A DNA stretch of 64,000 nt from Fibrobacter sp. (GTDB lineage: Bacteria > Fibrobacterota > Fibrobacteria > Fibrobacterales > Fibrobacteraceae). The first letter of the stretch is position 1. Each line of letters begins with the position of its first letter. Under the pieces are notes generated by a model, which saw only the letters and a program-made list of their open reading frames with translations, had not been told where the DNA came from and did no database searches. Location: the NCBI GenBank assembly GCA_024399035.1, contig JAKSID010000010.1, positions 1 to 64,000 of the forward strand. The letters run 5' to 3'. Of the stretch, positions 2,200 through 27,896 are shown one piece after another. Both the position numbers and the translations under genes were made by a program.

Positions 2200-4377
2200 A
2201 TGAGTCAACTTAAGGGCAAACCAACCCCTCCATACCGCAACAAGAATTTTCTCATCCTTATCGCGATGATCCTTTTGCTGTTCATCATGTTCCCCTTGGC
2301 ATCCAAGGATGGTGATTCTAACATAACCCGCACCGAATTTTTGGCAATGATGGCCGACTCTTCCAAGGTCATCACAGAACTTTCTTTGCACAAGACCCCC
2401 GATGGCATCATCATCGAAGGCGCTCGTGAAATGACCGAAGAGGAACGTGCCGAAGCCAAGAAGAACCAGGGCATGTTCGCACGCTTTACCCGCGCCGACG
2501 ATTCTGCAAAGCCGGGCACCAAGGGCTTTACCAGCCACATGCTGGCCATCGATAACGAACAGATTACCGCATGGGAAGCCTCCAAGGGCGTTAAGGTCAA
2601 GGTAATCCACGAATCCACCACCTGGATCGATTCCCTGGTGGCATTCCTCCCCGCAATTCTCCTCATCGTCTTCTTCTACTTTATGATGAACCGCCAGATG
2701 GGTGGCGGCAGCAAGGGCCCCTTCGCCTTTGGCAAGAGCCAGGCAAAGCAGCTGGACCAAAAGAAAAAGACTCTCTTTACCGACGTTGCAGGCTGCGACG
2801 AAGCGAAGCAGGACTTGCAGGAACTTGTTGAATTTTTGAAGGACCCCAAGAAGTACGACGCCCTGGGCGGCCGTATTCCTAAGGGAGCATTGCTGGTTGG
2901 CCCTCCGGGTACCGGTAAGACTTTGCTTGCCCGCGCTGTTGCAGGCGAAGCTGGCGTGCCTTTCTTTAGCATGAGCGGTTCCGACTTCGTTGAAATGTTC
3001 GTGGGTGTTGGTGCAAGCCGCGTCCGTGACCTTTTCGAAAACGGTAAGAAGAACGCTCCCTGTATTTTGTTCATCGACGAAATCGACGCCGTAGGTCGCC
3101 AGCGTGGTGCAGGTCTCGGTGGCGGTCACGACGAACGCGAACAGACTTTGAACCAGTTGCTGGTTGAAATGGACGGCTTCACCGCCAACGAAGGCGTAAT
3201 CCTCATTGCAGCCACCAACCGTCCGGATGTTTTGGACAAGGCATTGCTCCGCCCGGGTCGTTTCGACCGTCAGATTGTGGTGGGCCTGCCCGACCTTAAG
3301 GGCCGTGAAGAAATCCTCCGCGTACACCTGAAGAAGCGCAAGGTTCCTCTGGCAGACGACGTGGATGTAAAGGCCGTTGCAAAGGGCACCCCGGGTCTTG
3401 CCGGTGCAGACTTGGAAAACCTGGTGAACGAAGCCGCCTTGATGGCCGCCCGCTTCAACAACAAGAAGGTGACCATGCTGGACTTCGAGGAAGCCCGCGA
3501 CAAGCTTTCTATGGGTGCGGAACGCAGAACCCTCCTCATGACCGACGAGGAAAAGCGCCATACCGCCTACCACGAAGCAGGCCACGCCCTTATGACCTTG
3601 CTGTGCAAGCATTCCGACCCGCTGCACAAGATTACCATTATCCCCCGCGGTCGCGCCCTTGGCGTAACCATGAGCCTGCCGGAACGAGACCAGGTTTCTT
3701 ACAGCCGCGAATACGCCGAAGAACGCATCATGATCATGATGTCCGGCCGTCTGGCAGAACTGGTATTCTTCAACCATCAGAGCACCGGCGCCTCCAACGA
3801 TATCCAGCGCGCCACGGAACTGGCCCGCAAGATGGTGACCGAATGGGGCTTCGACGATGAAATCGGTCCTGTTTGCTATAGCCGCGCCGATGGCGAAGTG
3901 TTCCTGGGTCGCGAAATCAGCAAGCCTAAGGAAATGTCCGAAATGATGGCCCAGAAGATCGACCAGGCTGTTAACGGACTGATCAAGCGTCTGGATGCAG
4001 AAGCCAAGAAGCTGATTGAAGAAAACAAGGACAAGCTGATCGACCTGGCCGAAGCCCTCTTCGAATTCGAAGTTCTGGACCGCGAAGAAATCGACCGCGT
4101 CATGGCTGGCGAAAAGCTGGAAGGCACCAAGAAGAGCCGCCAGTACAAGGCCATGGAAGAACTTGCCGAAAAGCGCAAGAAGGAAAACACTCCCCCGCCA
4201 GATCCGGGCAAGCAGCCTCCCGTTGCTCCCGTCAGCGATGCTCCCGTTTCTGAAGTGAAGCCCGCACCCGCCAAAGGCTCTGAAACCGCCGACGCAAGTG
4301 CCGCAGCAGAACCTGCCGTAGAACCGACAGCGGAAACCTCTACCGACGCAAAAATCGAAGAAGAACCGAAGGCTTAG
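2200..4377 (+). CDS. ftsH: ATP-dependent zinc metalloprotease FtsH
   Basis: 725 residues. A membrane-anchored AAA+ hexamer that degrades misfolded membrane proteins and some regulators. Seen: transmembrane segment 1 at about residues 16-34, a periplasmic domain, transmembrane segment 2 at about 147-163, Walker A GPPGTGKT at 234-241, Walker B ILFIDEID around 289-296, the SRH block RPGRFDRQI, and the zinc motif HEAGH at 458-462. The last 60-70 residues are a Pro/Ala/Glu-rich tail beyond the usual family end, probably disordered. The start has AAAAGG upstream. folP follows after only two bases, so they should be co-transcribed. Confidence 0.98.
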
Positions 4378-4379
4378 TC

Positions 4380-5273
4380 ATGCTTAACGAATTGCTGTCC
4401 AAATCACGTGCACTCCCCTGGAAAATCGGCGACGACGTTCTGCCCTGCAGGCCAACTCCGCTGATCATGGGCATTGTGAACGTGACTCCGGATAGCTTTT
4501 TCGATGGCGGTCAGCACAACACTTTGGACGCAGCCTTCAACCACGCCATGAAGTTGCTGGACGAAAGCGCAGTCATCTTGGACATCGGCGGCGAAAGCAG
4601 CCGCCCCGGCAGCACCCCCGTTCCTGTTCAAGAAGAAATCGAACGAGTCTGCCCGCTGGTAGAACGCCTGGTCGCTTACGCCAAGCAGAACCCGGACCGC
4701 AAGTTCTACATCTCCATCGATACAGTCAAGTCCAGAGTGGCCGCAGAATCCATGCGCCTTGGCGCACACATCATCAACGACATTAGCGCTCTCACCATGG
4801 ACCCCGAAATGGCAAAGACCGTGGCAGACACAAACGCATCCGTTGTACTGAACCACATCCGCGGAAACTTCGGTACCATGCAGCAGGACTTTACACCCTA
4901 CGAGAACGTGGTAAAGGAAGTTCATGACGAACTGATGGACCAGGTCCTTAAGCTATTGGCATTGAAGGTGGATCCCCAGAGAATTTGTCTTGACCCGGGC
5001 ATCGGTTTCGGTAAGACCGCCCAGGACAATATCGACTTGATGAAATCCGTGGAAGATTTCCTCTCCGAAGGTTACCCCGTACTTATTGGATCTTCTCGCA
5101 AGTCCTACATCGGAAAGCTGAAGGGCCTCGAAGACAGTGACCGTTTAATCCCGACCGTGACTGCTGGCATTGTGGCTGCCTTGGGTGGTGCAAGCTGCAT
5201 TCGCGTCCACGACGTTAAGGAAGCTCACGAATCCATGCTTTACTTGGAGGCCATGAACAATGGTTCTGTTTAG
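4380..5273 (+). CDS. folP: dihydropteroate synthase
   Basis: 297 residues. FolP joins p-aminobenzoate to dihydropterin pyrophosphate in folate synthesis and is the sulfonamide target. Motifs in order: MGIVNVTPDSFFDGG at residues 30-44, DIGGESSRPGS near 68, SIDTVKSRVA near 112, NDIS, DPGIGFGKT near 205, and GSSRKSYIG near 243. The start is two bases after the ftsH stop, and its 3' end overlaps the cdaA start by 14 bases. The ftsH-folP neighbourhood is also known from enterobacteria. Confidence 0.97.
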   Translation: MLNELLSKSRALPWKIGDDVLPCRPTPLIMGIVNVTPDSFFDGGQHNTLDAAFNHAMKLLDESAVILDIGGESSRPGSTPVPVQEEIERVCPLVERLVAYAKQNPDRKFYISIDTVKSRVAAESMRLGAHIINDISALTMDPEMAKTVADTNASVVLNHIRGNFGTMQQDFTPYENVVKEVHDELMDQVLKLLALKVDPQRICLDPGIGFGKTAQDNIDLMKSVEDFLSEGYPVLIGSSRKSYIGKLKGLEDSDRLIPTVTAGIVAALGGASCIRVHDVKEAHESMLYLEAMNNGSV

Positions 5274-9288: not shown

Positions 9289-10475
9289 TACTGAACCTTA
9301 GTCTGCTTAGGGTTACGGTCGTCATATTCTGCCAAGGACCTGTAGCCTTCTTCCTGAAGGGCAACAAGCAGTTCCTTACGCATGGCATGGGCTGCCATCC
9401 AGCGGAAAGCAACCACGGAATAGCACTGCACTGCATCAACGCCCAGCTTGATCAGGTCATAAATCTTGAAACCGTGATCGATGCCGCCGCAGGCGATCAC
9501 GCTCATCTGCGGGTAATGTTCGCGAATGTACTTTACGTTCCAAAGCATGTTCTCGTAGAGCGGGCGGCCAGACATTCCACCGCAGTCGCCATCGGCACGG
9601 AGCGGGGTCAGGTCCTCGAACTTGGTCTGCACTGGCAGTTCGCTAATCTTCTTGGTGGGATAAGTGTTGCCCACCACAACTCCGTTCACGCCGCAGCGCA
9701 CCAGCATGTCCATAATGTTCACCAGATGGCGTTCAGAAAGGTCCGGACTGATCTTTGCATACACAGCCTTGCGAAGTGTCTGGGTATTACGGAAATTCAT
9801 GATTTCACCAAAGATCTTTTCAGTGAGAGTCAAGTCCATGTCTACGCGGGATTCGCCGGTGTTGGGGCAGCTTACGTTAATTTCGATATAGTCGCCGGCC
9901 TTATAGGCAATGGCAAAACTTTCAACCACATCCTTCAGCTTTTCATTTTCATCGGTAAGGCCCGGAGTCTCTGCAACAGAAACGCCAACGCACATGCCCA
10001 CCTTGTGAGCCTTCATCAGCTGGGTGTCTACACGCTTGGCAATGACTTCGACACCTTCGTTATTCAAGCCCATGCTATTATGGATAGCGCGTTCTTCTTC
10101 CAAGAAGCCGATACGGGGGCGATGGGTATTGCCTTCGCGGTAGTTTCGGGTAGCGGTGCCAACGGAAATTCCGCCAAAGCCCATGTTGGCGTAATCGCAA
10201 ATGCGTTTGGCAGTCTTATTTGCACCTGCAGCCAGGATAATGGGGCAGCCGAGATAAAGGGAATTGCTATGGTCCGGGAAGGTAATCACACGCTTCAGGG
10301 TCTTTGTCTTATCGGGACGACCTCCCATAAACGGGATGAAAGGAGCAAAACGAGCAACGTGCTTCAGGGAATCGTGGCGAAATTCCGGGTTATTGTGGAA
10401 AATCTTACGAATCAGGGCCAGGACTCTATCACCGAAATTCAGGTAATATTCGTGATTTACGCAATTAAAACTCAT
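9288..10475 (-). CDS. pyrD: dihydroorotate dehydrogenase-like flavoprotein
   Basis: 395 residues. Oxidises dihydroorotate to orotate in pyrimidine synthesis. The TIM-barrel FMN family is shown by GCPIILAAGANKTAKRICDYANMGFGGISVGTAT (quoted in parts: GCPIILAAGANKTAK, GFGGISVGT), the INVSCPNTGE block with the active-site loop, KISPDLSE, VNGVVVGNT and VIACGGIDHG. The class-2-like N-terminal extension suggests a quinone-dependent enzyme. The start at 10475 was chosen over a TTG two codons upstream because AAAAGGA lies seven bases before this ATG. No other pyr gene is nearby. Confidence 0.88.
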   Translation of the reverse strand: MSFNCVNHEYYLNFGDRVLALIRKIFHNNPEFRHDSLKHVARFAPFIPFMGGRPDKTKTLKRVITFPDHSNSLYLGCPIILAAGANKTAKRICDYANMGFGGISVGTATRNYREGNTHRPRIGFLEEERAIHNSMGLNNEGVEVIAKRVDTQLMKAHKVGMCVGVSVAETPGLTDENEKLKDVVESFAIAYKAGDYIEINVSCPNTGESRVDMDLTLTEKIFGEIMNFRNTQTLRKAVYAKISPDLSERHLVNIMDMLVRCGVNGVVVGNTYPTKKISELPVQTKFEDLTPLRADGDCGGMSGRPLYENMLWNVKYIREHYPQMSVIACGGIDHGFKIYDLIKLGVDAVQCYSVVAFRWMAAHAMRKELLVALQEEGYRSLAEYDDRNPKQTKVQ

Positions 10476-21808: not shown

Positions 21809-21834
21809 AAAAAGCCCCGGACAACGCCGGGGCC
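21809..21834 (-). terminator. rho-independent terminator after the small peptide gene
   Basis: On the minus strand GCCCCGG-cgttgt-CCGGGGC followed by five T, 28 bases after the stop of the 47-residue peptide gene. Confidence 0.85.
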
Positions 21835-21861: not shown

Positions 21862-22005
21862 TTAGTCGAATATGTCGTGGTATTCTACCACAGATTCAAC
21901 TTCGTCGTCAACGCAGTCCAAGCTGCAGCATAGGATTCCTACGTCGTTCGTAACATCGATGATTTCCATCCTAGGAGCTATGTATTCTTTCTTTTCGTTT
22001 TCCAT
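21862..22005 (-). CDS. 47-residue acidic Cys-containing peptide
   Basis: Starts at an ATG preceded by a strong AGGAGGAAAA site and ends at TAA before a strong terminator. The peptide begins MENEKKEYIAPRMEIIDV, has the cluster GILCCSLDC (three Cys in five residues) in the middle and ends acidic (VEYHDIFD). No signal peptide. It lies 13 bases after the stop of the 1682-residue secreted protein, so the two are probably one operon. Short peptides starting K-E/T-Y-x-x-P-x-M-E-V/I are, to my knowledge, common but uncharacterised in Bacteroidota and Fibrobacter. A modified-peptide precursor is one possibility, but no maturase gene is nearby. Confidence 0.72.
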   Translation of the reverse strand: MENEKKEYIAPRMEIIDVTNDVGILCCSLDCVDDEVESVVEYHDIFD

Positions 22006-22017
22006 TTTTCCTCCTAA

Positions 22018-25000
22018 TTACTTGTTCACGATTGCCTTGTTGTTCTTGATGTAGGCGCCACGGGCTGTGGGCTTGCCGTTCAGGTGACGGCCCTGGAGGT
22101 CGTACCAGCGGACAGGCTTCTTGTCGACGGTGTTGAGGTTGTCGCCGGTGATGCCCTGGATAACGTCTTCGATTACGGTTTCGTCAACGACTTCATTGTT
22201 ATCGTCCACGATGCGGACAACGATTGTCTTCGGGAGTTCCTCAGCCTCATTGGCAGCGGCCTTCATCAGGCCAACGCCGGGCTTGGGGGAAACCACAGGC
22301 TTGTTGTACACCAGGTAGGCGCGCATGGGCGGAACACTTGCACCGACACCAGCCTTCACGAACTGGCCGGCCACGATGTTATCGCCTTCGTTGACGCCGG
22401 CAAAGCCGTAGACCTTGCCCAGTTCCGGATCGCCCTCGACCCAGGTCTTGCCCTTGTAGGCACCCCTGAATGTCCAGGGACCGGAGGTGCTTTCCATGAT
22501 CTTGCCAGTCGTTGCCTTGAGAGTCACGTTATCCACGGAGATGGAGGCGTTCTTGTTGAACTTGATAAGGTACGGGGTGTTGGCCACAATGCTATTGGCT
22601 CTGGTACCGGTTGCAACCCACTGGTCGCCTTCCTTCTGCACGTCGGTAATCTGGAGCACGTCTTCCATGTCTTCGTTCAGGTCCATGGAGAACGGAAGCA
22701 TCAACGTAGAGAAACGGCCGGCAGTGAAGTTGCGGGCGATCTCGATATGTTCCACGGTAATGTCCTCGGGAACCACAAGCTCGTCGGTGCTCTTGGAACC
22801 GGACAGGGTTGCCACAACGCCTTCCCCATCGCCATCCTTGGCCAAGGCAATACCGCTGATGGGCTTGAGGGTTGCGCTAGCAGCCTTCAGATCCTGAATG
22901 TCTTCGGCAGTGAGCTCACCTTCGTAGATTTTGCCGTTGGCATAGAACTGCTTGCCTTCTTCGATTGCAATGGAGGCCGCTTCCGCAGGAATTTCCAAGT
23001 CCGCGACATTGACTTCTTCAGAAGCTTCATCCCATGTGAGAACCAGTTCCGGCTTTACGATAGAACCGCTGAAGTTGGGATACTTGTCGCCAGCAGTAAC
23101 GTTCTGGCCCCAGATGGAGTTTTCGTCAGAACCGCGAAGCAGTGCTGCCACGGAACCGTTGGCAAATTCTTCTGCAGACTTGGCTGTGCCGTAGCCATCA
23201 TCGGTTTCGCCAATGAAGAAATTATTCGTCATAATCGGGGCTGGAGTATCGTCATCAAACATAGGCATTGCCATTGCTACAAAGTTTTCAGTCATTCCCG
23301 CAGTAAGTTTTCCATAGAAGAAACTGTTGTTTATGCTGAATCCTTCATATTGAATCTGCGCAACAATGCCTCCAGCAGCAGTCCGACTTTCAGGAATCAT
23401 TCCTTGGAACTTAGACCCAACAGATGCAGCAACCGTTGATGCTACATATACGTTATCCAAAGACATTTTTCCTTCAGCCACGCCAACGAGACCGCCAGCA
23501 AAAACGCCCTGAATATAAGAGTTTTCTACACCAACATTACGTATAGAAACAGCCTCTTCATTAGACTTAACATAACCAAACAAACCTCCGTAAGCATTAT
23601 TTCCATCAGAAACCAATCCCGAAACAACATGGCCCTGACCATCAAAAGTACCCGAATATGGAATCATTGATTCCGGATCAGCAATGCCAATCGGCGTCCA
23701 CAAACGATATGTGGAGATATCATTCTTCAGATTACCATCAGCGTCCAGCACGTCTTCGTTGACAACAATATCTGCAGTCAACTTACCACAGGCAAAAACT
23801 TCACCATAGATATCAACAACCTTCGCAAATTCATACAGGTCATCTGAAGATGCAATGAGATAGCAACCATCATCATCCGTTTGCATCTTCGTTTTCTTAA
23901 TTTTTCCACTGAAGTTGGGATACTTTTCACCATCGGCGACATTTTGGCCCCAGACAAGATTTTCGGACCCTCGAAGTATGGTTACCACAGATCCATCAGC
24001 AAATTCTTCTGCGGTCTTGGCGGATCCAAAAGCATCATCCTCTGTCCCAATGAAGTAATTATTCCATGCCATAGAGACAGCGCCATCTTTCGCAAAACCA
24101 ATAATTTCACCTGTTTTATCTTGGCCGTCAATTTTTCCAACATTGTAGCTGCTTAAAACGGTTGTTTCCACGGAGGTAGCACCTATAATGCCGCCAATAC
24201 GGTCATAACTCTTTATTGCTCCCTGATTGTAGCTGTTTTGCACAACAATTGATGATGAGCCAATCCGAGTTTCATCAGCAAAACCAATTATACCTGCAGC
24301 AGTACTATTTTGGGCATTCACAAAACCTTCAAAGCCACAAGCTTCTACTTCAAGATGCACATCACGAGCTTCACCAATGATTCCGCCAACATATTCGTAG
24401 CCCCAAATGTAAGAATCCTTGACAACTAGATTCTTGATAGAAACAGTCTCATTGTCGCTGGATTCTACATACCCAAACAAGCCAATTCTATTGGAGCCAT
24501 ATTGTTCAACAGTTTCCATCTTGAAATACAAACCAGAAATAGAATGGCCCTGGCCATCAAAGGTTCCCTTGAACGGATTCCCCCAAGAGCCAATAGGAGT
24601 CCACTGACGAAGTTTGGTGTTTTCACTATTCAAAGAACCATCTGCATTCAGAACATTTTCATTGATAAAAATGTCCTTCGTCAATTTTCCACAGGCCGCT
24701 GATTCCGACGATACAGTGTAGGCGAATTCGTAAAGTTCACTACCATTGGTAATTTCATAACATCCATCAACAGACTTGATTGACGAAATCAAACCGTAAA
24801 CTTCAAGATCACCCGATTGGTATCCATAAATCGTAGATATTCCTTCATACCCAAAATCTGTTTCCTTCACCCAAGCCTTAATATTCTTACCGTCAACTTC
24901 AGAAGGCAAAACAAAATCAATTCCTTCTTCGTATGTAGATTCAATAATAGAACCGTCAGAAAGACGATAAACAATCTTAGACTTCGGCACTACAACAGTA

Positions 25001-27066
25001 CCACTAAAGTTGGGATGCCAATCTCCATTAGTAGGATCCTGCCCCCAAATCGAACCATCTACAGAATTTTCATTATAGTTATGAAGCAAACTTGCCACAG
25101 TTCCTTTCTTGAAATCATCATTTAAGGATCTCGTATGCAAATCATATGTAAATGATTCATCATGGAAGGTATTATAAATGTTCGCTGTAGATCCTTTTCC
25201 TATAATACAACCGTTATTTCTTGCGCCATACACATTACCTATATGGTACGTGTTAGCAATCAAATATGACTCAGCACCAAGTTGACCAACAAGACCGCCA
25301 GCAGCGGGGCCGTCACCAGTAACACGGACATAGGAAATAGAATAGCTATTTGTCAGAGTAAATCCACTTCCATAATAACCAAACACACAGGCAACAATGC
25401 CACCCGCATGTGACATACCGCTAAGATAAGAATCTTCCACACCAACATTTTTAATGATAGAAGTTCCAGTCACAAAGCCAAACAATCCTCCTGCAACAAC
25501 ATCAGCAGATACCAAGCCTGAAATAGTATGGCCCTGACCATCGAAAGTTCCATTAAAAGGAGCTTCTTCAGAACCAATAGGAGACCACAGGCGATAATCA
25601 CCTATTTCGCCATTCAAATACAAATCTTTGGTAAGAACATTTGTATTTACGACAATGTTTTGCTTCAATTTACCACAAATGAGATTTCCTGAGTTATCTT
25701 CAACAATTTCAGAGAAATCATAAAGTTCTTCTTCATTGTTTATTTCGTAGCAACCATCAACCAACTTTATGGAAGGAACAAATCCATAAAAGACAAGATT
25801 TTCTGCTGCAGTGGTCGGTATAGCATATGCAATGCTGAGTCCTTCTGCATCAGTAGACCATTTTTTTATTTTCTTGCCGTTAACAACATTGGGTAAATCC
25901 CTTGTCAACCCCACAATGTAACTATCAACGACTTCGGTCCCATCAGAGAGTTTGTAGGTTACTGTTTTTTCAATAACAGAAGAAGTTTCTTTCTTGAAAC
26001 GGGGATGAGAATCACCATCAGCAATATCTTGAACCCAAACAGATCCATCAACACCTTCGCTACTGTAATCTTGAAGAAGTTTAGCTACAGAACCATCGGT
26101 AAATTCTATCACTGATTTCGCAATACCGTAAGCCTGAGTCAAACCGTCATGAAAAGCACATCCCCCTTTTTCCGACTCAAGATAAAATACGTTTTCCATT
26201 TTTGGGGTATACACAGAATAGCCATAACCAGATAAAAGAGCGCCAACCAAGTGATCTGATTGCGAAATTTTATCTGCATATTCATAATCAAAAGTCATAG
26301 AACTAAAACTATTGACCACAGATAAGCGAGCGCCCCTATCCATAACACCCAACAAGCCACCAACAAAATGCACCGGATTATCTTCGTATCCTAACAAATA
26401 ACAATGTCCAGCTGTGTAAGAATTTTCAACAAACAAAGTTGAACTTGTGGATACATAGTAACCAACAAGCCCACCCGAACGATAGCGAGAAGCTATCGTT
26501 CCATCAAAAGAACATTTTCTTATTTCAACATTATAACTACCTAAAGAAACGTGACCAATAATGCCACCAACATTGGCGCAATTCTGAAAATAAGAATCCA
26601 CAATATTTAAATTTTGAATAACAACATTTTTTGCCGCAGGCAAAACATAACCAAACAAGCCGATACTGATATCGTTATCTAGAAGATTTCCATAACGTCC
26701 ATCGGCATAATACAAACCAGAAATCACATGACCTTGACCATCAAATGAACCCATAAAAGGTTTTCCATTAAGAGAGTCACCTATGGGCTTCCATACTTCA
26801 AAGTTTGAGCCATCACCATTCAACGTTCCATCTTCTTTTAAAACATTTTCATTAACAACAATGTCTTTGATTAACTTTGCGCAGGAAAGATTACTATTCA
26901 TTTCCCCTTTGTTAACATAATCTGAAAACCAATACAGTTCCGCAGCAGTTCCAATGGCATAGCATCCATCGGTGTCCTTGGAGGGAGTTACGGGATTAAT
27001 AGCAGCACTTGCACTGGCAACAAAGGCAAATGCGAAAATTGACAAGAAAATGGCTTTTTTAAGCAC
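22018..27066 (-). CDS. large secreted repeat protein, GLUG-motif type
   Basis: 1682 residues, GTG start with AAGGAGGAGAA upstream and a signal peptide (MLKKAIFLSIFAFAFVASASA). Four modules of about 300 residues each open with DGCY-x-I-x(5)-LY-x-F and contain KL-x-x-DI-VNENVL, a W-x-PIG block, FDGQGH-x-ISGLY, and runs of NVGG-I-IG / AGGLVG strands typical of GLUG-motif beta-solenoids. Modules 1-2 end in a small domain of the type VTYKLSDGTEV. A C-terminal beta domain (FSTLMLPFSMDL, TPYLIKF, MRAYLVY) is followed by RWYDLQGRHLNGKPTARGAY..., a terminal module common on Fibrobacter and Prevotella secreted proteins. Likely surface-attached or secreted; adhesion is inferred. Base composition changes inside the gene. 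Confidence 0.88.
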   Translation of the reverse strand: MLKKAIFLSIFAFAFVASASAAINPVTPSKDTDGCYAIGTAAELYWFSDYVNKGEMNSNLSCAKLIKDIVVNENVLKEDGTLNGDGSNFEVWKPIGDSLNGKPFMGSFDGQGHVISGLYYADGRYGNLLDNDISIGLFGYVLPAAKNVVIQNLNIVDSYFQNCANVGGIIGHVSLGSYNVEIRKCSFDGTIASRYRSGGLVGYYVSTSSTLFVENSYTAGHCYLLGYEDNPVHFVGGLLGVMDRGARLSVVNSFSSMTFDYEYADKISQSDHLVGALLSGYGYSVYTPKMENVFYLESEKGGCAFHDGLTQAYGIAKSVIEFTDGSVAKLLQDYSSEGVDGSVWVQDIADGDSHPRFKKETSSVIEKTVTYKLSDGTEVVDSYIVGLTRDLPNVVNGKKIKKWSTDAEGLSIAYAIPTTAAENLVFYGFVPSIKLVDGCYEINNEEELYDFSEIVEDNSGNLICGKLKQNIVVNTNVLTKDLYLNGEIGDYRLWSPIGSEEAPFNGTFDGQGHTISGLVSADVVAGGLFGFVTGTSIIKNVGVEDSYLSGMSHAGGIVACVFGYYGSGFTLTNSYSISYVRVTGDGPAAGGLVGQLGAESYLIANTYHIGNVYGARNNGCIIGKGSTANIYNTFHDESFTYDLHTRSLNDDFKKGTVASLLHNYNENSVDGSIWGQDPTNGDWHPNFSGTVVVPKSKIVYRLSDGSIIESTYEEGIDFVLPSEVDGKNIKAWVKETDFGYEGISTIYGYQSGDLEVYGLISSIKSVDGCYEITNGSELYEFAYTVSSESAACGKLTKDIFINENVLNADGSLNSENTKLRQWTPIGSWGNPFKGTFDGQGHSISGLYFKMETVEQYGSNRIGLFGYVESSDNETVSIKNLVVKDSYIWGYEYVGGIIGEARDVHLEVEACGFEGFVNAQNSTAAGIIGFADETRIGSSSIVVQNSYNQGAIKSYDRIGGIIGATSVETTVLSSYNVGKIDGQDKTGEIIGFAKDGAVSMAWNNYFIGTEDDAFGSAKTAEEFADGSVVTILRGSENLVWGQNVADGEKYPNFSGKIKKTKMQTDDDGCYLIASSDDLYEFAKVVDIYGEVFACGKLTADIVVNEDVLDADGNLKNDISTYRLWTPIGIADPESMIPYSGTFDGQGHVVSGLVSDGNNAYGGLFGYVKSNEEAVSIRNVGVENSYIQGVFAGGLVGVAEGKMSLDNVYVASTVAASVGSKFQGMIPESRTAAGGIVAQIQYEGFSINNSFFYGKLTAGMTENFVAMAMPMFDDDTPAPIMTNNFFIGETDDGYGTAKSAEEFANGSVAALLRGSDENSIWGQNVTAGDKYPNFSGSIVKPELVLTWDEASEEVNVADLEIPAEAASIAIEEGKQFYANGKIYEGELTAEDIQDLKAASATLKPISGIALAKDGDGEGVVATLSGSKSTDELVVPEDITVEHIEIARNFTAGRFSTLMLPFSMDLNEDMEDVLQITDVQKEGDQWVATGTRANSIVANTPYLIKFNKNASISVDNVTLKATTGKIMESTSGPWTFRGAYKGKTWVEGDPELGKVYGFAGVNEGDNIVAGQFVKAGVGASVPPMRAYLVYNKPVVSPKPGVGLMKAAANEAEELPKTIVVRIVDDNNEVVDETVIEDVIQGITGDNLNTVDKKPVRWYDLQGRHLNGKPTARGAYIKNNKAIVNK

Positions 27067-27239: not shown

Positions 27240-27815
27240 TTAGTTCTTGAGGCAGCGGACCGAGTACATGTTTGTACTGATGTCGAACTCCCTGGAGAAG
27301 TCACCCGGGGGTGCCAGATGCCAGCCAAAGGCGTCGCCGTCTTCCTCGGTGGCACTCCAGAAATGAGCCGAGACCCCCAGTTCGAGGAATCCATCAGTGG
27401 CTTTCCCTGCCGGAACCACGTCAAAGCCGTAACGATCGGAGCCATCCCACTTGTCCCTGGACTTGAGACTTACCCAGGCGGCCTCCTTGCCATCGCTGTC
27501 CTCAATGAACCTTTTTAGGGCAGTCCATTCCTCGTCTTCGGGAAGGTGCCAACCTGCCGGACAGGCTTTTACAGCCGCACCAAAAGTGTAAAGTTTTCCA
27601 TATTTTTTACAATTTTCGTCATTATTTTCATAACATGTACTACCGGGCATCTTGTAGTTCAAGTTCTCGGCCATCCACGTTTTTGAGCCAATTTTGACGG
27701 TTTTGTAGGTTTGGTGGTCTCTAGAATCTGTAAATTTTTCAATTATTGGCACAGAAATTGCATAGGAGGCCAGTGAGAAAACTATGATAGGCAGTATTGC
27801 GTGTTTCATGTACAT
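27240..27815 (-). CDS. exported Fib_succ_major paralogous domain protein
   Basis: 191 residues. A signal peptide (MKHAILPIIVFSLASYAIS) is followed by the 'Fibrobacter succinogenes major paralogous domain': FTDSRDHQTYKTVKIGSKTW, MAENLNY, YGKLYTFGAAVKACPAGWHLP, EEWTALKRFI, GFDVVPAG, FWSATE and a final YSVRCLKN. This family is greatly expanded in Fibrobacter and its function is not known; the fold resembles FGE-like proteins. The start is ATG at 27815, or 27809, since the signal peptide begins at MKHAIL. It is the strongest single marker for the organism. Confidence 0.93.
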   Translation of the reverse strand: MYMKHAILPIIVFSLASYAISVPIIEKFTDSRDHQTYKTVKIGSKTWMAENLNYKMPGSTCYENNDENCKKYGKLYTFGAAVKACPAGWHLPEDEEWTALKRFIEDSDGKEAAWVSLKSRDKWDGSDRYGFDVVPAGKATDGFLELGVSAHFWSATEEDGDAFGWHLAPPGDFSREFDISTNMYSVRCLKN

Positions 27816-27896
27816 AAAATACAAAAGTATTTGCCCAAAACCGTAGAAGTAACTAGATTTGGCACATTCTCAAATAAATACTAAAGGAGTATAGAG

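Follow-up and report, generated by a model that had tools for sequence, protein, structure and literature searches.

The closest described counterparts of the peptide studied here are the linear polyphosphorylated peptides (LPPs; LppA/LppB/LppK/LppS/LppN/LppD) of Popov et al. 2026, which were reported in Bacillota only, near capsule loci (PMC13381572). A precedent for each enzymatic step comes from Paenibacillus alginolyticus; the LPP kinase phosphorylates core Ser3, the protease cuts after T-1 with help from the RRE, and YxxP is essential (PMC13381572). The same paper states that the role of both the LPPs and the paeninodin-type lasso peptides is unknown (PMC13381572). Clusters of the latter (NCBIfam NF033524; PadeA, PadeK) are known to hold an HprK kinase, an NTP transferase, and a split B1 (PMC7533575, PMC9266682), and a His-Lys-Asp-Asp motif has been reported for lasso kinases (PMC9266682). 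More generally, many RREs bind W/Y/LxxP (PMC12710340).

The window, i.e., the whole stretch of 64,000 nucleotides of Fibrobacter sp. DNA that was analysed (assembly GCA_024399035.1, contig JAKSID010000010.1), contains a large secreted-protein gene followed by a small peptide gene (Table 1). An earlier note, made from the sequence alone, had placed the two genes 13 bases apart; the measured spacing is 12 nt, with both genes on the minus strand. The strong AGGAGG site and the strong terminator that it described for the peptide are both in place, the latter being a hairpin of eight pairs, seven of them GC, followed by a T-run (fold -19.6 kcal/mol, z -2.6). The peptide ORF begins with ATG and encodes 47 residues. 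The large protein consists of a signal peptide, four GLUG-like repeat blocks (residues about 24-1390), and a C-terminal domain (CTD), and has no Pfam family above cut-off. Its best match to the PF07581 GLUG motif is 14.4 bits versus the Pfam cut-off of 20.5, and the former description "GLUG-type" is thus too strong; the repeats are GLUG-like at most. Directly upstream of the large gene lies the gene of a Fib_succ_major domain protein (PF09603, E 1e-25; 27240-27824, minus strand).

Table 1. Positions of the features of the peptide locus within the window, with the basis of each assignment.
Feature	Position	Strand	Basis
Peptide gene, 47 aa (MENEKKEYIAPRMEIIDVTNDVGILCCSLDCVDDEVESVVEYHDIFD), proposed RRE-dependent RiPP precursor	21862..22005	-	ORF, translation, family profile, dN/dS
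Proposed leader, residues 1-25; KKEYIAP (Y8xxP11) is the putative RRE-binding motif	21931..22005	-	Boundary by analogy
Proposed core, residues 26-47 (CCSLDCVDDEVESVVEYHDIFD), acidic	21865..21930	-	Cleavage by comparison with LppA (PMC13381572)
S28, candidate phosphorylation site in core	21922-21924	-	By comparison with LppA (PMC13381572)
AGGAGG ribosome-binding site of peptide	22010..22015	-	Sequence
Intrinsic terminator after peptide	21813..21834	-	GC-rich hairpin and T-run
Large secreted protein, 1682 aa, GTG start, signal peptide	22018..27066	-	ORF, translation
C-terminal domain (CTD), about 270 aa, basic end RWYDLQGRHLNGKPTARGAYIKNNKAIVNK	22021..22830	-	Alignments, census

Pfam and NCBIfam searches with the single window peptide returned nothing. 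A family profile built from 25 sequences, by comparison, detected the family in 56 of the 61 Fibrobacter genomes, generally with several copies per genome and with as many as 14; the genome of the window has three, on contigs C2 (the window), C6, and C8. The family, previously unnamed, is large, and hundreds of unannotated precursors have been uncovered. Its consensus reads KKEYxAPxMEIVDLxxQxxLLxxS, after which comes an acidic tail of variable sequence. Both the Y and the P of YxxP are invariant in all 88 distinct Fibrobacter peptides; outside the genus, the Y is present in 31 of 33 peptides and is replaced by F in two. A leucine at Y+16 is found in 82/88 and a serine at Y+20 in 77/88 of the distinct Fibrobacter peptides, the positions around the serine being variable. 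The hallmarks of the family are YxxP and LLxxS. The Cys cluster was considered as a further hallmark and rejected, as it occurs in part of the family only: among 68 paired peptides, 69% have at least one cysteine in the tail and 59% have two or more. Some subfamilies carry conserved extra C-terminal stretches (DDEFGF...DRQA/NRHV, YCDELGF...; loci L068, L073, L081, L089, L090, L091, L103, and others), some of them adjoining genes for Wzc/Wzx polysaccharide export, an indication that each type of core may go with a type of partner.

The nearest orthologue of the window peptide (G079, locus L101) is identical at 46 of 47 residues and has the same neighbours: as in the window, the large gene precedes it and the helicase gene follows. 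Because the two sequences are separated by only two changes, they are too similar for a dN/dS of their own, and family pairs were used instead: over 20 independent pairs of family members, dN/dS is 0.15 for the leader and 0.19 for the tail, and the family is under purifying selection. The short length of the ORF is the one property that might suggest a chance or non-translated reading frame; given the conservation in 56 of 61 genomes, dN/dS values well below 1, the ribosome-binding site, the terminator, and the fixed position, that explanation was rejected and its probability is negligible. The earlier note's view that the peptide is real is borne out on both counts that it had raised, homologues in related genomes and selection on the peptide frame.

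That note had also stated that the K-E-Y-x-x-P start fits no nameable family, which is not the case: it corresponds to the [Y/W]xxP leader known from RRE-dependent RiPPs. Of the 25 family members, five matched lasso_PadeA_fam (best E 7e-4), more than matched any other NCBIfam family, which suggested an RRE leader. Against the PDB, the best match of the peptide profile was the TfuA leader 6jx3_A (MEKKKYTAPQL), at an E-value of 0.055 that is not significant alone, and the best match of a profile of the genomes' PqqD proteins was TfuB1, 6jx3_B (E 0.0033). The peptide and PqqD profiles thus independently retrieved both chains of one solved RRE-leader complex (6JX3), that of an actinobacterial lasso peptide. 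The likeness is visible by eye (MEKKKYTAPQL vs KKEYxAPxM), although TfuB1-TfuA is part of a lasso pathway. The PqqD profile retrieved just one other RRE, PbaB1 (9x90_B, E 0.0092); LppB (9X8Z) was not among its matches up to E 10 in the PDB copy used, which may not contain 9X8Z. Taken as a whole, the sequence evidence gives good support to the prediction of an RRE-dependent precursor that is processed in trans.

Genes for an NTP_transf_5 protein (PF14907, E 2e-44), an HprK-like kinase, an S24/S26-like protease, a stand-alone PqqD (PF05402, E 7e-12), and an ABC exporter are neighbours of many peptides, the precursor often coming immediately ahead of them; in other genomes, enzyme genes are also found elsewhere, away from peptides. 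The kinase model (pLDDT 90.5) matches the PEPCK and HPr kinase folds, and the alignment retains H, K, D, and D residues that probably correspond to the His-Lys-Asp-Asp motif of the lasso kinases. The Ser-His-Asp boxes of the protease are SMxPF (90 of 90 copies), HR(V/I) (88/90), and GDGN (88/90); the copies without a His or Asp box include truncated ones. None of the enzymes is encoded at the window locus. Elsewhere in the same genome, protease, PqqD, and ABC exporter genes are on C39, the kinase gene is on C10, and NTP transferase genes are on C6 and C8, a genome content from which the enzymes would be expected to act on the window peptide in trans.

Such genes might also call to mind a lasso peptide pathway. 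Paeninodin-type clusters share with the Fibrobacter system a YxxP/WxxP leader, a split RRE, an HprK kinase, and an NTP transferase, and the peptide leader resembles those of TfuA and the PadeA family. However, the leader protease family PF13471 was over cut-off in none of the 61 genomes, and PF00733 gave only short partial matches in eight genomes, covering about 40-70 residues of a 354-position family. Neither type of gene was among the families recurring around 80 cassettes. The Fibrobacter system is thus without the B2 protease and the macrolactam synthetase, and has a signal-peptidase-like protease instead. A lasso pathway was therefore rejected, and it is very unlikely that the window peptide is a lasso peptide precursor. 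The PF00733 match on contig C39 of genome G000 is probably a QueC-like protein.

The absence of a lasso cyclase and of a B2 protease is shared with the LPPs, as are the five enzyme types (protease, discrete RRE, HprK-like kinase, NTP transferase, and MsbA-like exporter), small precursors with a conserved YxxP leader and a variable tail, a conserved Ser three residues past the likely cut, and the adjacency of some loci to polysaccharide genes. There are also differences. One LPP cluster has one to three precursors, whereas those of Fibrobacter are dispersed, with CTD secreted proteins as partners; the end of the leader is LL in Fibrobacter and FET in LppA; and the conserved Ser is at Y+20 rather than Y+18. 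The full LPP leader motif YxxPxVLxHQxIxFETxxS was not found in the Fibrobacter peptides, which have in common with it only YxxP, a partial HQ, and a Ser at the third residue past the last conserved position of the leader. Judged by its enzyme set, the peptide would work like an LPP in its pathway; it may or may not belong to the LPP family, because the leader end and the RRE similarity differ.

From sequence comparison (the family and its selection, the pairing described below, the leader motif, the enzyme set, and co-occurrence), we consider it probable that the window peptide is an LPP-type, RiPP-like precursor that is RRE-bound, kinase-modified, protease-cut, and exported in trans, likely acting on or with its CTD partner. 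The leader (KKEYxAPxM...LL) would be held by the stand-alone PqqD-type RRE while the HprK-like kinase, in many loci together with the NTP_transf_5 enzyme, modifies the short acidic core, for which the conserved Ser is the likeliest site. The signal-peptidase-like Ser-His-Asp protease would then remove the leader, and the MsbA-like ABC transporter would export the product. By analogy with the LPP cut after T-1, cleavage is placed after L25, making S28 the third core residue and its phosphorylation plausible. In the genome of the window, enzymes encoded elsewhere would serve at least three precursors in trans; recognition by the RRE and export of the product are likewise predictions. An LPP-like pathway outside Bacillota, in Fibrobacter and rumen Prevotella, is new, as are scattered precursors that would be served in trans.

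Also new is the near one-to-one operon pairing of the peptides with secreted proteins that share a CTD of ~270 residues. Of the 93 Fibrobacter peptides in the fetched loci, 70 directly follow a CTD gene and 17 directly follow another peptide, 87 in all; six of the 93, and eight of the 33 peptides from elsewhere, have no recognised CTD neighbour. Because those loci had been fetched for holding a peptide or an enzyme, a reverse census was made by a whole-genome CTD search, in which most intact CTD genes directly precede one or two YxxP peptides. The count in the genome of the window is 3:3, each peptide being directly behind a CTD gene. One CTD gene (G028:C6:18581) has no peptide behind it, and another (G005:C4:158225) precedes a second CTD gene that does. 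The N-terminal parts of the partners vary freely, and the partner is therefore defined by its CTD; GLUG repeats, considered as the defining feature, were rejected because they are not shared. The earlier suggestion of a tie to the surface protein stands as far as the pairing with secreted CTD proteins is concerned, but not with GLUG repeats as the defining feature. Its proposal of a co-transcribed, possibly modified precursor is well supported by the family conservation, the RRE leader motif, the matching enzyme set, and the CTD pairing.

The CTD matches no Pfam or NCBIfam family. Its model (pLDDT 85) is mostly beta-strand and has no match in the PDB at E <= 0.001. As a basic C-terminal domain on secreted Fibrobacter proteins, it resembles T9SS CTDs (TIGR04183) and the Fibrobacter BTD/Fpm-1 (PMC6851124). 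A known T9SS sorting domain was nevertheless rejected, there being no fold match and no match to TIGR04183 (T9SS type A CTD) at E <= 1 for any of 15 CTD sequences. The CTD appears to be an undescribed, new secreted-protein domain, BTD/Fpm-1 having been compared by description only.

Mean net charge is +6 over 35 residues at the basic CTD end and -5.4 in the acidic peptide tail, and CTD and peptide distances correlate with r = 0.54 against a permutation maximum of 0.09, a correlation that gene linkage partly explains. Together with the pairing itself, these opposite charges and correlated divergence could be accounted for if the peptide were left unmodified and served the CTD protein as a small partner, for example as chaperone, escort, or anchor co-factor, with PqqD and the other genes serving other substrates. 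This is improbable, as an RRE-protease pathway would require just such features as the invariant YxxP and the conserved LLxxS, precursors often directly precede the five enzyme genes, and two near-complete Fibrobacter genomes (G001 and G014) are without peptide, full CTD, NTP5, stand-alone PqqD, and kinase together. Short, relict-like CTD tails (DLKGRPVHGSSNARGAYYKK) with no peptide behind them occur in these two genomes (G001:C16, G001:C6, and G014:C4), and may be remnants or a separate tail type.

If the peptide is instead modified and exported as proposed, its target has to be considered. Since each precursor in the genome of the window is directly behind a CTD secreted protein, the product would likely act at the cell surface, either on this protein or together with it, a proposal whose support is genetic. 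It is conceivable, though we hold it only tentatively, that peptide and protein form an obligate two-part unit. Each phosphorylated acidic peptide would then bind, or be attached to, the basic CTD end of the partner that belongs to it and would control the display, anchoring, or activity of that protein, and a single enzyme set would serve many such pairs in Fibrobacter and Bacteroidota. Alternatively, an LPP-type product might act alone, as a signal, an antimicrobial, or in connection with polysaccharide, the CTD pairing reflecting co-expression or a shared regulator rather than physical partnership. Some Fibrobacter CTD-peptide pairs are directly beside Wzc-type genes, Bacillota LPPs lie in capsule loci (PMC13381572), and a few peptides have no CTD neighbour; yet peptides in two phyla have the same CTD tail beside them, on proteins whose N-terminal parts are very unlike, and genomes lacking peptides also lack the full CTD. 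We regard a peptide acting alone as rather unlikely, while allowing it some weight. For LPP-type peptides, a genetic partner conserved nearly one to one in abundant gut and fibre-degrading bacteria offers a concrete role that can be tested, namely action on or with a surface protein.

Disregarding weak partial matches, the only members of the phylum with the kinase are Fibrobacter and a single sister genus. Scanning with the kinase gave at least 587 relatives, and the best 80 of these are mostly from rumen Prevotella and other Bacteroidales with kinase-protease-PqqD-ABC cassettes, the four genes being kept in about 60-80 of the 80 loci. The same CTD-peptide pairs are also present in several of these loci (L177, L184, L185, L189, L203, and L210). 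An exception to the co-occurrence of the parts is one genome (G063, 88% complete) that has the cassette (L273, G063:C15) and no detected peptide or CTD; either its precursors were missed or the cassette has another type of substrate.

A Butyrivibrio plasmid (L275; pNP243 of Butyrivibrio fibrisolvens) carries a related cassette in which a Cys-rich YxxP peptide is accompanied by polysaccharide genes and the CTD is missing. The 57-residue peptide (MKKAYVKPELKASMNG...CYDPCWNPCYNPCQPSYGRIW; 9762-9935), annotated as hypothetical, sits between HprK-like, PqqD, S24/S26, and polysaccharide genes and is likely an LPP-like precursor in Bacillota. In the same locus, a KKKYDAPSL segment in a sensor histidine kinase frame (4364-5173) weakly matches the peptide profile (E 0.045), possibly by chance. 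Finally, a family of genes encoding about 440 residues recurs near the cassette, in Segatella baroniae B14 (L182, 12091-13416) and five other loci; by eye, its members might be read as radical-SAM peptide maturases.
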